From the IMG/VR virus record IMGVR_UViG_3300040960_001631, positions 1 to 64,000 of that record: DNA of 64,000 nt; one strand, written 5' to 3'. The stretch's first letter is position 1, and every line of letters begins with the position of its first letter. The translations under genes and the position numbers were made by a program. This DNA is from a virus. The notes beneath the pieces are model-generated. The model ran no database searches. It was not told where the DNA came from and saw only the letters and a program-made list of their open reading frames with translations. Below are positions 39,000 through 44,534 of the stretch, piece by piece.

Positions 39000-39449
39000 A
39001 TGCAGTGGACTTATGAAGGAAAACAAATTGATATAATACCTGACGAGTATGAAGGATTTGTTTATCTCATAACCAATCTTACCACTGGGCAAAAGTATGT
39101 AGGCAAAAAACTAGCAAAGTTTAAAACAACTAAGCCACCTCTCAAAGGCAAAAAAAACAAACGCAGAGGCTATAAAGAATCAGACTGGCGTGACTATTGG
39201 GGTTCATCTGATAGACTACAAGCTGATGTTGAAGCACTAGGCCCAGAAAACTTCACTAGAGAAATATTATACCTATGTAAAGGCAGAGGTGAGATGTCTT
39301 ACCTTGAGGCAAGAGAGCAGTTTGAGCGCCGTGTATTAGAAACAGATGAGTATTATAACGGAATTATTAACGTAAGAGTTGGCGGCTCAGACAAACTAAA
39401 GCAAGCTCTATTAGAACACACCATACAGGCAAAACAATCCAACACATAA
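39000..39449 (+). CDS. GIY-YIG-type endonuclease-like protein (149 aa)
   Basis: Residues 19-37 (GFVYLITNLTTGQKYVGKK) match the start of a GIY-YIG nuclease core. A 'YW.S..RL..D' segment and a C-terminal Glu-bearing helix (EAREQFERRVLE) follow as expected. T4-like phages carry related free-standing nucleases (Seg family). There is no obvious DNA-binding extension, so it may be a DNA-processing enzyme rather than a homing nuclease. The ribosome site is weak (TAAG). It ends immediately before a 524-bp non-coding stretch. Confidence 0.7.
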   Translation: MQWTYEGKQIDIIPDEYEGFVYLITNLTTGQKYVGKKLAKFKTTKPPLKGKKNKRRGYKESDWRDYWGSSDRLQADVEALGPENFTREILYLCKGRGEMSYLEAREQFERRVLETDEYYNGIINVRVGGSDKLKQALLEHTIQAKQSNT

Positions 39450-39830: not shown

Positions 39831-39912
39831 AAACTTAAACATTATTACTTCGTAATAATGTGTTTTCTTCATAATAACTTATATCAACAAACGAAGTGTA
39901 ATAGTTTGAGCG

Positions 39913-39973: not shown

Positions 39974-40450
39974 ATGAAAATTAATGAAATGTCTAATTTA
40001 GAACTTGATGAATTTATCCCTTTAACTAAAAGGAGTAGGGCATTACGCAAAGCAGAGAAAAAAGGTGCTGCTGATATGCAAGCCAGTGTTGATAATCTTA
40101 AAAATGAACTAGGATCATATCTTGGCGCTCAAGGAAAGCGTGTAAAAACAGCAACAACTGATGATGTTATTGCATTTCTTAAAACAAAAAATGTAGACAC
40201 TAGTGATATTGGTACTAGTGATCCAATGACTCCAAAACGCATTGATAATATTTTTAAAGTAAAGGTGCAAAGAAAAATGTCGGGGCAACAAGTTACCCCT
40301 AAGCAAGATACTGCAACAAGTAGCAACGACGAAGAAAATCCAAAAATTAGCAATTACGCACAAGCAAGGAAACTTGCTGCTGGATTAAATGCTAAAGAAA
40401 AGCGTAGGCTTGCTGATCAACTTTTAAAAAGTATAAAAACAAAAAATTAA
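39974..40450 (+). CDS. Unknown protein (158 aa)
   Basis: No family recognised. The protein is basic and helical. It begins MKINEMSNLELDEFIPLTKR, has a Thr/Ser/Asn-rich linker around residues 105-125, and ends with a Lys-rich helix (LAAGLNAKEKRRLADQLLKS). The shape, two small helical domains joined by a linker, would suit a DNA- or head-associated protein, but this is a guess. A good ribosome site (TAGGAGA) and late box precede it. The stop overlaps by 4 bp the stop of the frameshift-extension frame on the opposite strand. Confidence 0.65.
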   Translation: MKINEMSNLELDEFIPLTKRSRALRKAEKKGAADMQASVDNLKNELGSYLGAQGKRVKTATTDDVIAFLKTKNVDTSDIGTSDPMTPKRIDNIFKVKVQRKMSGQQVTPKQDTATSSNDEENPKISNYAQARKLAAGLNAKEKRRLADQLLKSIKTKN

Positions 40451-40677
40451 AAGAAGGGCAAACCGCTTTTCTTAGTAGTTTCTAAATTATCTTTAATTAT
40501 ATCACCAATAAGTTGTTTGTCTTCGTGTGAAAGCATATATGCTTCATCAATAGTAACACCACCTCGCATATACCAACAAATCTTTAATAGTTCTGATTTA
40601 ATTTCTTTTTGGTGACTCTCAATCTTTTTGGATTCTTCTAGGATCTCACCCAGACTAAGGGGTAAGATCCTTATGCG
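40447..40677 (-). CDS. -1 frame extension of the gp26-like protein (gp51-like, 76 codons)
   Basis: This open frame has no start codon at its head. It is entered exactly by a -1 slip at the TTTTTTC heptamer at the end of the gp26-like gene. It encodes 76 residues: RIRILPLSLGEILEE, then a charged helix, then CWYMRGGVTIDEAYMLS and ending KKSGLPFF. The slipped product would be about 363 aa, against 289 for the normal product. By analogy with lambda G/GT and other tail-assembly chaperones, the extension should bind the tape measure. An internal ATG (at WYM) could also yield a short product, but it lacks a good ribosome site. Confidence 0.75.
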   Translation of the reverse strand, partial: RIRILPLSLGEILEESKKIESHQKEIKSELLKICWYMRGGVTIDEAYMLSHEDKQLIGDIIKDNLETTKKSGLPFF

Positions 40678-40686
40678 AAAAAATTT
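40641..40686 (-). promoter_or_regulatory. Programmed -1 ribosomal frameshift signal
   Basis: On the minus strand: slippery heptamer T_TTT_TTC at 40683-40677 (in-frame codons AAT TTT TTC), overlapping a second candidate A_AAT_TTT at 40686-40680. A 6-nt spacer GCATAA follows, which includes the normal stop codon. Then comes a hairpin of 11 pairs, GGATCTTACCC (40670-40660) with GGGTGAGATCC (40651-40641), one pair a G-U, and an 8-nt loop. Slippery site, spacer length and stem strength all match known -1 signals, and the frame reached is the open one. Confidence 0.8.
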
Positions 40687-41540
40687 GATTGGTCAAACAC
40701 TATTGGTACTGACCATTTAGCAGGAGCACCTTCTGCTATTTCTTCGTCAGTGCTGTGAATTTCTAATGGTTTAATAGAAAATTTATCTTTTTGTGCATTC
40801 AAATGCTCTGTAAGTTCTGTATAAAAACTTTTGTCTACATTTTCAATAAATTCTTGAATATGCGCAGGATTTGTTACAGAATCATCTCCTACGTCTATTC
40901 TTGATATACTTTTTGATATTGTAAACACAGTAAGTTCGGTAAGTTTCATAAAACTTTGATTAAACTTTTTAATTTTTTCTGAATCAGGAATACCATCGTC
41001 ATTAACAAGTGCAAAAATACGTTGTTCTTCAAAAGTTTTCATGCTAGCTTCTGTAAACTCTTCGTATGTTAGAGGTCTTAGATGTACTTTCATGTCGTTG
41101 ATTTCAAAAATATCTTCAAAGGTATTTGTTACAAGAGAATTTAATACTTGTCTTAGATCTAATGTATAGCTTTTTTCAACATTAATATTAGGAACAGTAG
41201 TATTAATATCCATCTTGTCGCCATACGTAGCTAATCTAATTGCAATTAGTACAGCGTCTAGATCAACACTTGGTAGTTTCCATGCATTTTTTATATTAGG
41301 AACACAACTTTGAATAACACTTACAGTTGCTTCGCCATTAAGAAGTGCATCAGGAGTTTTCATAGTAAGCTCGTCTTTTGCTGTCATAGCATATACTGGT
41401 AATTCACCGTTGTCTGGCATATCTAGTGTACCTGCAGGCCAGTATTTGCCTTGACTAGGTAATGTAATGTATACTTTAGCTTGTCTAAAGTATTTCTTTA
41501 GAGGATTGTCCTCATATTGTGTAGGGTTAAATTCTACCAT
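40671..41540 (-). CDS. gp26-like tail-assembly-chaperone candidate (289 aa, normal frame)
   Basis: Motifs YITLPSQGKYWPAGTLDM, AMTAKDELTMKTPDALLNGE, IQSCVPNIKNAWKLPSVDLD, VHLRPLTYEEFTEASMKTFE and a C-terminal FDQSNFFA are those I know from proteins annotated as gp26 (baseplate hub) in marine T4-like phages. The frameshift signal at its 3' end and the tape-measure gene directly divergent from its start suggest the classical tail-assembly chaperone role: keeping the tape measure soluble until tail tube forms around it. The ATG at 41540 has GGAGAT 4 bp upstream and a late box at 41585-41592. The hub assignment in T4 is old knowledge. The chaperone role is inference. Confidence 0.8.
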   Translation of the reverse strand: MVEFNPTQYEDNPLKKYFRQAKVYITLPSQGKYWPAGTLDMPDNGELPVYAMTAKDELTMKTPDALLNGEATVSVIQSCVPNIKNAWKLPSVDLDAVLIAIRLATYGDKMDINTTVPNINVEKSYTLDLRQVLNSLVTNTFEDIFEINDMKVHLRPLTYEEFTEASMKTFEEQRIFALVNDDGIPDSEKIKKFNQSFMKLTELTVFTISKSISRIDVGDDSVTNPAHIQEFIENVDKSFYTELTEHLNAQKDKFSIKPLEIHSTDEEIAEGAPAKWSVPIVFDQSNFFA

Positions 41541-41551
41541 GATTATCTCCG

Positions 41552-41618: not shown

Positions 41619-44534
41619 TTGGCTGAACAAGTAGAAATTACTAATGTAGGCGGTGAAGGCCTTGCTAGCGAAGCAACTCTTCAAAATCTGCTGGCTGCAA
41701 TGAGAGATCTAGGCGGCGAGAAAGGAAAATCGGCTGCTGCTAAAGCTCAAAAACTTTATACCCAGGCACAAAAAGACGGTATAAAAATTATAGATACTGA
41801 AGCAGACTCTAGAGAAAAAAATACAGAAAATCTAAAAGACAACACATCTAAACTACAAAAATTTGGACAAGCATTATCAGATGCTGCTGTTTCAGGTTTA
41901 TTTGCAGTAGGTGCTTCTTTAAAAAATCTAACTACTGAACTAATGTTTGGCGGAGACGAGCTGTCTGACTTTGCCAAACACATTCCTATTGTAGGAGGAC
42001 ATTTAAGCCTATTAACCGGAATGATAGATTCAAATATGTCTGCATTTAGAGAATTAAGTGCAGTAGGTGCACGTTTTGGCGACGGATTAAATGATATTAG
42101 AGCAGCATCGGCTGCTGCTGCAATGCCATTAGATGAATTTGTTAATCTAGTTTCTGAAAATTCGATGGTAATGAAAATGTTTGGTTCAGATGTAGCTTCA
42201 GGTGCAAAGTCATTTGCAGCAATGAGTAAAGAACTACGTGACGGTCCAGGTCGAGCATTAATGGGCCTTGGTTTTACATCAACTGAATTAAACGAATTAT
42301 TAGTAGACTATGCAGACATTCAAGCAGGCGCATTTACACGAGATAGAATACAGGGTAGAATAACAGCTAAAAATGCAGCTGAATTTGGTGAACAACTTAA
42401 TGCATTATCTGCTGCAACAGGTAAACGCCGCGATCAGATAATGGAAGAAATAAAAGCACAACAGGCTGACATAAGAATTAGAGCAGCAATGAGCAGATAC
42501 ACCGGTGAAGAAGGCGAACGTTTCCGTGCAAACATAGGTACAGTAAGCGGTATTTCAAAAGGTCTTGCAGATGCACTAGTTGACTTTGATGATGGTATTC
42601 CGACTAATGAGTCTACTAGAAGACTAATGCAGTTTAGTGATACATTTGCACAATTAGGTGACGATGTTGAAAATATGAATCCGCGAGAACTTAATAATTT
42701 TGTTGTTGGAGTTCGTCAAGATCTAGAAGAATATGCTAGAGTAAATAACACAACTGTAGAAGAACTATCTAAATCTATACCGGGTTTAGAATCTGTATTT
42801 GGAATAGTAGGCGAAACTGCACATATGGCAGAGATGTCTCTAGAACAGTTTGCAGAAATGCAACGCAAAGCTGCAGAAGAAGCAAATAGGAATGAAGGTT
42901 TAAAACAACTTGGAGAAACTGTAAGACAGTTTAGGGGTGCATTACTAGATGCATTTATCGAAGGTGGTGTATTAAAAACTATTACAACAGAATTTGATAA
43001 ACTTGCAACTACTCTAAGTGATTTTGTTAAATCGCCTGCATTCAAAGAAGGTCTTGAAAATATAACAGAAACAATACAAACATTTATTTCTAATTTCCAA
43101 AATTTTGATTTAAAAACTGCACTCTTTGGAGGAAAAAAAGGAGACAAACTGTCTGATGGTACTGTTCTTGAAAACGATGTTGCAGGATTATTTGGTGGCG
43201 ACGGCGGGGGATTTAGCGGAATGTTTGGAGATTTTGTAAGCAATGCATTTAAATCCTTATTACCAAGTTTAGATACTGCGTTAATTGGAATAGCAGCGGG
43301 TATTGCTGCACTTGTGTTTGCACCTGTAGCAGCACCTTTCCTTGCTATAGGCGCAGCACTAACAGCGATGTTTGGTTGGGAAACTATTAAAGGTTGGGTA
43401 AGTGACGGCTGGGACGCTATAACAGGAGTGTTTACAAGTATTGGAGAATGGTTTAGTGCAAGTAAAATTAAAGAAAAACTAGTAGAAGCTTGGGATAGTG
43501 TAACCGGAGTGTTTACTAGTATTAAAGATTGGTGGCTTAATACAAGTATTGGAGAAATGCTCAGTAATGCATGGAACAGCGTAACTGGAGTGTTTACTAG
43601 CTTAGGTGATTGGTGGGCTAATTTTAGTTTTGGTGAATTTATTGACAACACGTTAGTTAAGATATGGGATAATGCTGGCGCGGCATTTAGTAGTATAAGT
43701 GAATGGTTCTCTAATTTTTCAATTACTGAGACATTAACTAATATGTGGAATACTGTAAAAGGTTTCTTTAGCTTTGGTGATGGAACTAGTTTTAGTATTA
43801 GTCAACTAGCAACCGATGCATGGGAAACTGTAAAAGGTTTCTTTAGCTTTGGAGGTGGCGAAGAAGGAACATCCTTTAGTATAACTAGTTTGTTATCAGA
43901 TGCTTGGGCAACTATTACAGGATTCTTTAGTTTAGAAAATTTTGAACTTCCTAGTATTAGTAGCATGTTCCAAGGAATAATAGATGCTGTAAAAGGATTC
44001 TTTACATTTGATTTTGAAATGCCAAACTTTAAAGCATACCTTCCTAAATGGTTAGGCGGCGAAGGCAAATCTTTATTTGGCGGCAGCGATGATGTTGCAA
44101 GTGCAACTCCTCCAGAACCACCAGATGTTACACCTGCTGCAGAAGGCGGAGCAGCACTCGCTGATGCACAATCCGCAATAGCTACATTTGCAAATTTAGA
44201 TGGATTACAAAATAATTTAGATATTTTAAAAACAGGACTTGACGTAAACAGTGTTTTAAGTTATACTAATGCTATGAAACAATTGGTTGAAGTTCTTGGT
44301 GAATTAAACGAAGAACTTGCTAAAGATAATAAATTTGGTCCTGGTACAGGCGAAAATGCAGGAAGTGTATTAGCTAAAATGGATTCAGTTGGCGGTGGCG
44401 GAGCCGGTGGAGAAGAAGTAAATAGTAGTTTACAAGAAATCTTAGCAGTGCTACGTGCTCAAAACACTAAAACAAATCAAATCGAAGTAAACACCCGAGC
44501 AAGAGGCCTTGACATATCTAGGACAGTGAGTTAA
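41619..44534 (+). CDS. Tail tape-measure protein (971 aa)
   Basis: The protein is long and mostly helical. A hydrophobic segment lies at about residues 553-583 (IGIAAGIAALVFAPVAAPFL). From ~585 to 795 come repeated units of roughly 30 residues centred on WD.[IV]TGVFTS[IL]..WW or TVKGFFSFG. Regularly spaced aromatics of this kind mark phage tape-measure proteins, which fix tail length and later pass into the host membrane. The start is TTG with AGGA upstream. An ATG 5 bp earlier is out of frame and hits a stop after six codons. It is divergent from the chaperone candidate and leads the portal-capsid operon. T4 gp29 would be the functional equivalent. Confidence 0.85.
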   Translation: MAEQVEITNVGGEGLASEATLQNLLAAMRDLGGEKGKSAAAKAQKLYTQAQKDGIKIIDTEADSREKNTENLKDNTSKLQKFGQALSDAAVSGLFAVGASLKNLTTELMFGGDELSDFAKHIPIVGGHLSLLTGMIDSNMSAFRELSAVGARFGDGLNDIRAASAAAAMPLDEFVNLVSENSMVMKMFGSDVASGAKSFAAMSKELRDGPGRALMGLGFTSTELNELLVDYADIQAGAFTRDRIQGRITAKNAAEFGEQLNALSAATGKRRDQIMEEIKAQQADIRIRAAMSRYTGEEGERFRANIGTVSGISKGLADALVDFDDGIPTNESTRRLMQFSDTFAQLGDDVENMNPRELNNFVVGVRQDLEEYARVNNTTVEELSKSIPGLESVFGIVGETAHMAEMSLEQFAEMQRKAAEEANRNEGLKQLGETVRQFRGALLDAFIEGGVLKTITTEFDKLATTLSDFVKSPAFKEGLENITETIQTFISNFQNFDLKTALFGGKKGDKLSDGTVLENDVAGLFGGDGGGFSGMFGDFVSNAFKSLLPSLDTALIGIAAGIAALVFAPVAAPFLAIGAALTAMFGWETIKGWVSDGWDAITGVFTSIGEWFSASKIKEKLVEAWDSVTGVFTSIKDWWLNTSIGEMLSNAWNSVTGVFTSLGDWWANFSFGEFIDNTLVKIWDNAGAAFSSISEWFSNFSITETLTNMWNTVKGFFSFGDGTSFSISQLATDAWETVKGFFSFGGGEEGTSFSITSLLSDAWATITGFFSLENFELPSISSMFQGIIDAVKGFFTFDFEMPNFKAYLPKWLGGEGKSLFGGSDDVASATPPEPPDVTPAAEGGAALADAQSAIATFANLDGLQNNLDILKTGLDVNSVLSYTNAMKQLVEVLGELNEELAKDNKFGPGTGENAGSVLAKMDSVGGGGAGGEEVNSSLQEILAVLRAQNTKTNQIEVNTRARGLDISRTVS

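Follow-up and report, generated by a model that had tools for sequence, protein, structure and literature searches.

The window, i.e. the whole stretch of 64,000 nucleotides that was analysed (positions 1 to 64,000 of the IMG/VR virus record IMGVR_UViG_3300040960_001631), carries on its minus strand a gp26-like gene preceded by a Shine-Dalgarno-like motif (Table 1). The 3' end of this gene reads CAA TCA AAT TTT TTC GCA TAA and includes an in-frame T_TTT_TTC heptamer, followed by a 6-nt spacer (GCATAA) that contains the 0-frame stop codon and by a stem. Past the heptamer, the -1 frame stays open over 76 codons; its codons 1 to 36 include no start codon in the window, and the first possible start is an ATG at codon 37, devoid of any Shine-Dalgarno-like sequence upstream. 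A previous sequence-only reading of the window had described this heptamer and its stop-containing spacer (40671-40683), the stem and the 76-codon frame, all of which were recovered. It had also predicted products of 289 and about 363 residues: the size of the short form holds, but a -1 shift would yield a long form of 364 residues (288 + 76), with ...SNFF-RIR... as the junction sequence of the predicted fusion.

The features expected of a -1 programmed frameshift of the X_XXY_YYZ type, i.e. an in-frame heptamer, a nearby downstream structure and a conserved coding -1 frame, are all found at this locus. Furthermore, its sequence architecture displays the layout of G/GT pairs, namely short and long forms that share their N-terminal part and a -1 shift located near the 3' end of the gene.

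Table 1. Features of the gp26-like locus in the window and of the corresponding regions in compared loci (L numbers; positions within each locus)
Feature	Position	Strand	Basis or remark
gp26-like gene, 0-frame product of 289 aa ('G' / TAC-N short form)	40671..41540	-	PF12322, phrog_150
Shine-Dalgarno-like GGAG ahead of the gp26-like ATG	41547..41550	-	sequence ACGGAGATAATCATG
Slippery heptamer T_TTT_TTC, in frame	40677..40683	-	kept across relatives
0-frame stop TAA	40671..40673	-	read from sequence
Predicted stimulatory hairpin, 12 bp, 8-nt loop	40640..40671	-	fold z-score, arm-pair shuffles, compensatory changes
-1 frame extension, 76 codons ('T' / TAC-C domain)	40450..40677	-	conserved -1 protein, dN/dS, alignment
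Extension stop TAA	40447..40449	-	overlaps stop of convergent gene 39974-40450
Divergent 971-aa gene, candidate tape measure protein	41619..44534	+	adjoins portal gene; putative role
Heptamer-less gp26 homologues (Cygsa01, Ackermannviridae)	L058 2501-3411; L059 2483-3439; L064 2438-3366; L061 2501-3465; L065 2438-3241
Extension region in named jumbo phages	L046 3933-4055; L045 3828-4058; L048 3828-4037; L069 2367-2543; L068 2373-2531; L047		separate or truncated gene, or none

The extension and the convergent gene end in overlapping stop codons, which makes a snug gene border. This convergent gene (plus strand, 158 aa) weakly matches phrog_16152 (E 1.8e-4). Further away, a palindrome (ATTATTACTTCGTAATAAT, 39841-39859) followed by a T-rich stretch sits in the gap between a gene end at 39449 and the gene start at 39974.

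On the other side, the gp26-like gene is flanked by the divergent 971-aa gene, itself next to a portal gene (phrog_213). The 971-aa protein matched no family and its profile comparison with other tape measures gave no match; it harbours a hydrophobic stretch near residue 554 and a Trp-rich C-terminal part. Most relatives carry long divergent ORFs (~670-1140 aa) beside gp26, many of them detectably homologous. This gene is plausibly a tape measure gene, a role made likely by the hydrophobic and Trp-rich regions of its product, by a position next to gp26 that does not change and by the variable length of its counterparts. Thus, the divergent orientation that had been noticed from the letters is confirmed, but the tape-measure identity given to the neighbour finds no family or profile match. 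As the neighbour is divergent, the gp26-like gene of the window does not lie directly upstream of a tape measure gene, as G genes do. In HTVC008M and phiM7, the gene order is tail tube, gp26, gp51, then a large gene; in HTVC008M, the large gene is annotated as tape measure and one small gene separates it from gp51. The candidate tape measure gene of the window reads from a TTG; several relatives show, at the corresponding position, a Leu codon followed by Ala/Val and Glu, which suggests that the TTG start may be conserved.

The gp26 family and gp51 of T4

The 0-frame product belongs to the T4 gp26 family: it matches PF12322 (T4_baseplate) with 46.7 bits for a cut-off of 24.5 and phrog_150 with an E value of 1.6e-15, phrog_150 being matched by 30 of the 30 aligned members. 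It had been placed among T4-like marine phages; the T4-like affiliation stands, but the window lies outside the cyanophage/pelagiphage family and, among named phages, comes closest to Rak2-like and other jumbo phages (Phosso, Atu_ph07, PA5oct, 121Q). A sequence search against the PDB gave nothing meaningful, and when the window protein and a T4-type gp51 were modelled with AlphaFold2 (pLDDT 85 and 82, respectively), Foldseek found no PDB match at E <= 0.001.

T4 carries two PF12322 genes (26 and 51), whereas 19 other complete genomes, including those of cyanophages, schizo-T-evens, jumbo phages and ackermannviruses, carry one each. Profile comparison gave 98.9% between gp26 and the N-terminal part of gp51, 99.8% and 97.6% between cyanophage-type gp26 and T4 gp26 or the gp51 N-terminal part, respectively, and 98.7% between window-type and cyanophage-type gp26. 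In its C-terminal part, gp51 matches the -1 domain of the cyanophage type (96.3%), with a score of 45.9 where 60 column shuffles did not exceed 17.3; the boundary of this alignment is the slip site. Indeed, what is called 'gp51' in cyanophages lies in the -1 frame past the slip site, and phrog_634 ('baseplate hub assembly catalyst') covers both the gp51 C-terminal and the cyanophage -1 domain. As judged from these comparisons, T4 gp51 is a gp26 paralogue bearing the C-terminal domain that cyanophages would reach by frameshifting. In the tree, the gp26 and gp51 clades group together (86/65), beside the frameshifting nt-1/Aeh1/AdhaG2 (83/88), which lends moderate support to a replacement of frameshifting by duplication within Straboviridae. 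Together, tree and copy counts support the view that gp51, essential in T4 and described in a 2010 review as 'of unknown function', represents the long form of the chaperone, fixed by gene duplication.

The sequence-only reading had taken gp26 and gp51 as the chaperone pair. This link is supported by the T4 paralogy and by the position of the cyanophage 'gp51', but the extension of the window resembles gp51 in place rather than in detectable homology. It does not match phrog_634, and in hhalign the window-type extension reaches 12.6% against the cyanophage-type domain, with which its score (19.1) is barely above that of column shuffles (18.5), and 2.1% against gp51, although aligned in register. 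What it shares with the C-terminal part of gp51 is its place, its size class and a loose pattern around 'M/LS..ER'.

Some T4 genetics put gp26 in the baseplate hub (PMC3004832) and databases still call its family 'baseplate hub', so a real frameshift could yield structural hub components instead of tape-measure chaperones. This is rather unlikely: the same paper lists gp26 and gp51 as hub assembly chaperones, with gp51 absent from the final particle, the short/long design and the gene order fit a G/GT pair, and gp26-like members have weak matches to families of PmgB-like proteins and of tail assembly chaperones. The family phrog_1854 ('PmgB-like head morphogenesis') is matched by three relatives of the window protein, with a best E of 5.5e-4. 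Since PmgB of P1 has independently been proposed to be a tape measure chaperone (PMC9024508), it may be a distant member of the family.

Conservation of and selection on the slip site and the -1 frame

A scan of viral contigs retrieved 44 relatives of the gp26-like gene, 33-100% identical, including 42 with a readable 3' end. All 42 carry T_TTT_TTC at the same codons together with the -1 frame, the heptamer being retained at identities as low as 33%; the loss in close relatives that would have spoken against the frameshift is thus not seen. In most of them the extension ends in ...NLETTKKSGxPFF. With gp26 of the cyanophage P-SSM2 as query, TTTTTTC was found in 80 of the 80 contigs retrieved. 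Direct tblastn of the extension reaches only Phosso, Atu_ph07 and, weakly, Vibrio 2.275.O; the site and the -1 frame are present in the jumbo phages Phosso, Atu_ph07, PA5oct, 121Q, Vibrio 2.275.O, XaC1 and GAP32. The slip site and a -1 domain also occur in Kyanoviridae (P-SSM2, S-SM2, Syn10 and, with a TTTTTTT variant, HTVC008M), in schizo-type Straboviridae (nt-1, Aeh1), AdhaG2, Desulfovibrio phage 7757, phiM7 (TTTTTTT) and Rhizobium RHph_I34 (TTTTTTG). The compared loci are related by descent and such counts are not independent; the tree nonetheless has very deep splits.

As had been anticipated, gene calling misses the long form. The extension is annotated as a hypothetical gene in Phosso (XYS97476), 121Q (gp595), GAP32 (GAP32_242) and XaC1 (XaC1_326); gp687 of Atu_ph07 spans only ~40 aa of it and no gene is called there in PA5oct. 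The extension being annotated as a separate or truncated gene or being absent, the records of the named jumbo phages seem to need a joined CDS.

T_TTT_TTC occupies the frameshift site in 53 of 56 loci (TTTTTTT in two and TTTTTTG in one), whereas the other Phe-Phe pairs of these loci are encoded by T_TTT_TTC in 6 cases out of 262 and by T_TTT_TTT in 13. The codon before Phe-Phe takes ten forms (AAT, AGT, ACT, GAT, CAT, TCT, CGT, TAT, GGT, GCT) specifying nine amino acids (N, S, T, D, H, R, Y, G, A), but its third base is always T. As the residue varies and this base does not, selection acts on the bases and not on the residues. The extension itself is, judging from its substitutions, protein-coding and under purifying selection: dN is 0.02 for a dS of 0.35 between the window and its relative L001, other pairs give similar ratios (dN/dS ~0.06-0.19), and the other two frames of the region contain 228 and 237 stops over 31 sequences.

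The extension could alternatively be a separate small gene translated by re-initiation or from its own start, without frameshift, as in the annotations of Phosso and 121Q, where it begins at a start overlapping the gp26 stop; moreover, a few relatives carry ATGA or TAATG at the gp26 stop. This is very unlikely. The absence of an early start codon in the window is paralleled by the absence of any start position shared family-wide in the -1 frame before the Met of WYMRG at codon 37. Re-initiation would need neither the heptamer nor the T that precedes it, both of which are kept by selection. In addition, the conserved part of the extension domain opens, in the alignment, right at the slip site, and T4 gp51 has both domains fused at this very position.

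Such a mechanism may nevertheless operate in the lineages that lack the heptamer. Cygsa01 (pf16-like), Vibrio K362 and Vibrio YC have lost the heptamer and show TAATG in its position. In Kuttervirus Marshall and Taipeivirus FKP10, this position has TAATT and no ordinary start; that AUU serves as a start there is speculation. These heptamer-less lineages still keep the C-terminal domain in the -1 frame and may make it by re-initiation, as far as the sequences suggest.

A predicted stimulatory hairpin

The stem described from the letters, 11 bp with an 8-nt loop, was found as such (arms GGATCTTACCC / GGGTGAGATCC, 40641-40670, minus strand) and is extended by an additional A-U pair. It starts 5 nt from the heptamer as a 12-bp stem, or 6 nt as an 11-bp stem without this closing pair. 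RNAfold gave -23.3 kcal/mol for 97 nt (z = -3.3), none of 200 shuffles folding as well; across analyses z ranged from -3.3 to -3.9, and the arm pair of the window beat 100 of 100 shuffles.

The window and L001 have the compact stem with its 8-nt loop. In most other relatives, an arm search placed the 5' arm 2-6 nt past the heptamer and its partner ~38-51 nt further on, as in L017 (AGGCTTTTGTCTCTT / AAGAGACAAAAGCCT). In an alignment of 22 relatives, this helix is paired in 81.8% of cells and changes on both sides affect 6 of its 12 pairs, with 19 such cells compared to 5.4 in shuffles. It covaries with a score of 0.261; sliding the partner lowers this to 0.04-0.13, in a control that somewhat favours the helix since it was first spotted in these same sequences. 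The mean fold z of the jumbo-type loci is -2.75. A strong proximal stem was not found in a few relatives (L004, L014, L030, L039), and an Rfam search of the frameshift site gave chance-level matches only.

It is scarcely credible that the hairpin is a terminator or a chance structure and the heptamer a by-product of a conserved Asn-Phe-Phe: the stem does lie just past the stop codon, but it is followed by no T-run and is absent from the terminator scan list, the stems of relatives differ in sequence while keeping their pairing and a similar start distance, and the Asn is not conserved whereas its third base is.

A probable two-form tail assembly chaperone and its known counterparts

Given the conservation of the heptamer and of the -1 frame, the selection that they undergo, the stem and the gp26/gp51 paralogy, the locus most likely harbours a tail-assembly-chaperone frameshift of the G/GT type, and the gp26-like gene very probably encodes a tail assembly chaperone made in two forms. 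Most ribosomes would stop at the TAA and release the short form. A minority, paused by the hairpin 5-6 nt downstream, would slip back one base on U_UUU_UUC, both tRNA-Phe re-pairing in the -1 frame; the stop would be bypassed and the 364-aa form with its 76-residue C-terminal domain produced. By analogy with lambda gpG/gpGT, both forms would use their common part to coat the tape measure protein, and the long form its extension to recruit tail tube subunits, in a short:long ratio set by the frameshift. In T4, the equivalent pair would come from two paralogous genes, 26 (short) and 51 (long).

G/GT frameshifting is widespread in tailed phages. Lambda slips on G_GGA_AAG. The U_UUU_UUC of the window differs from the heptamer of lambda gpG/gpGT (PMC5009743), to which no sequence homology is claimed, and, unlike in lambda, the presumed tape measure gene does not directly follow the gp26-like gene. 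The TAC locus of Vandenendeviridae/Andersonviridae, which shifts to -1 at GTTTTT (PMC12846349), shares with that of the window a poly-T slip site, a family-wide conservation and a -1 ORF usually annotated as hypothetical. It belongs to another phage group, and it is for the window family that a stem with compensatory changes is documented.

T4-like phages are the closest known case. The 2022 abstract of Vladimirov and colleagues reportedly names genes 26 and 51 and describes frameshifting as kept in several T4-like groups. The identification of these chaperone genes (Vladimirov, Gautam and Davidson 2022, Virology 566:9-15) is relayed by PMC10885494, according to which some T4-like phages have one short and one fused long gene, and by PMC12846349, which mentions that TAC-N genes of T4-like phages have poly-T slip sites. 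As far as these accounts go, gp26 (TAC-N) and gp51 (TAC-NC) are, like the window proteins, short and long forms from the same gene family, made by frameshift in some groups and from two separate genes in others, including T4. With these genes published in 2022, the conclusions drawn here about T4 would be an independent confirmation. The window stands on the jumbo/uncultured side of the family, being ~30% identical to named relatives, and its T domain, with 76 aa versus ~55-65 aa, is longer and shows no detectable relationship to gp51. Possible novelties are the occurrence of the frameshift in this lineage, the stimulator structure with its compensatory changes and the lineages that may rely on re-initiation. 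The tail-chaperone frameshift would then extend to a jumbo/uncultured part of the T4 group, in which the long protein goes unannotated.

A broader reading, put forward tentatively as one of several possibilities, is that a single gene family has three routes to the chaperone pair, with differences in the T domain and stimulator of jumbo phages. Frameshifting, found in most lineages, would be the first route, probably the ancestral one; gene duplication with fusion would have been adopted by T4 and its close kin. Having lost the slip site, the pf16-like Cygsa01 and the Ackermannviridae would use an overlapping separate gene starting from TAATG, or perhaps from AUU in TAATT, a third route that would be new if the C-terminal domain is made as a separate protein. 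The jumbo lineage may have an unrelated or remodelled T domain, and its stimulator a loop of 8 to about 50 nt. Frameshift, duplication and possible re-initiation lineages provide a comparative set for asking how the short:long ratio is set.
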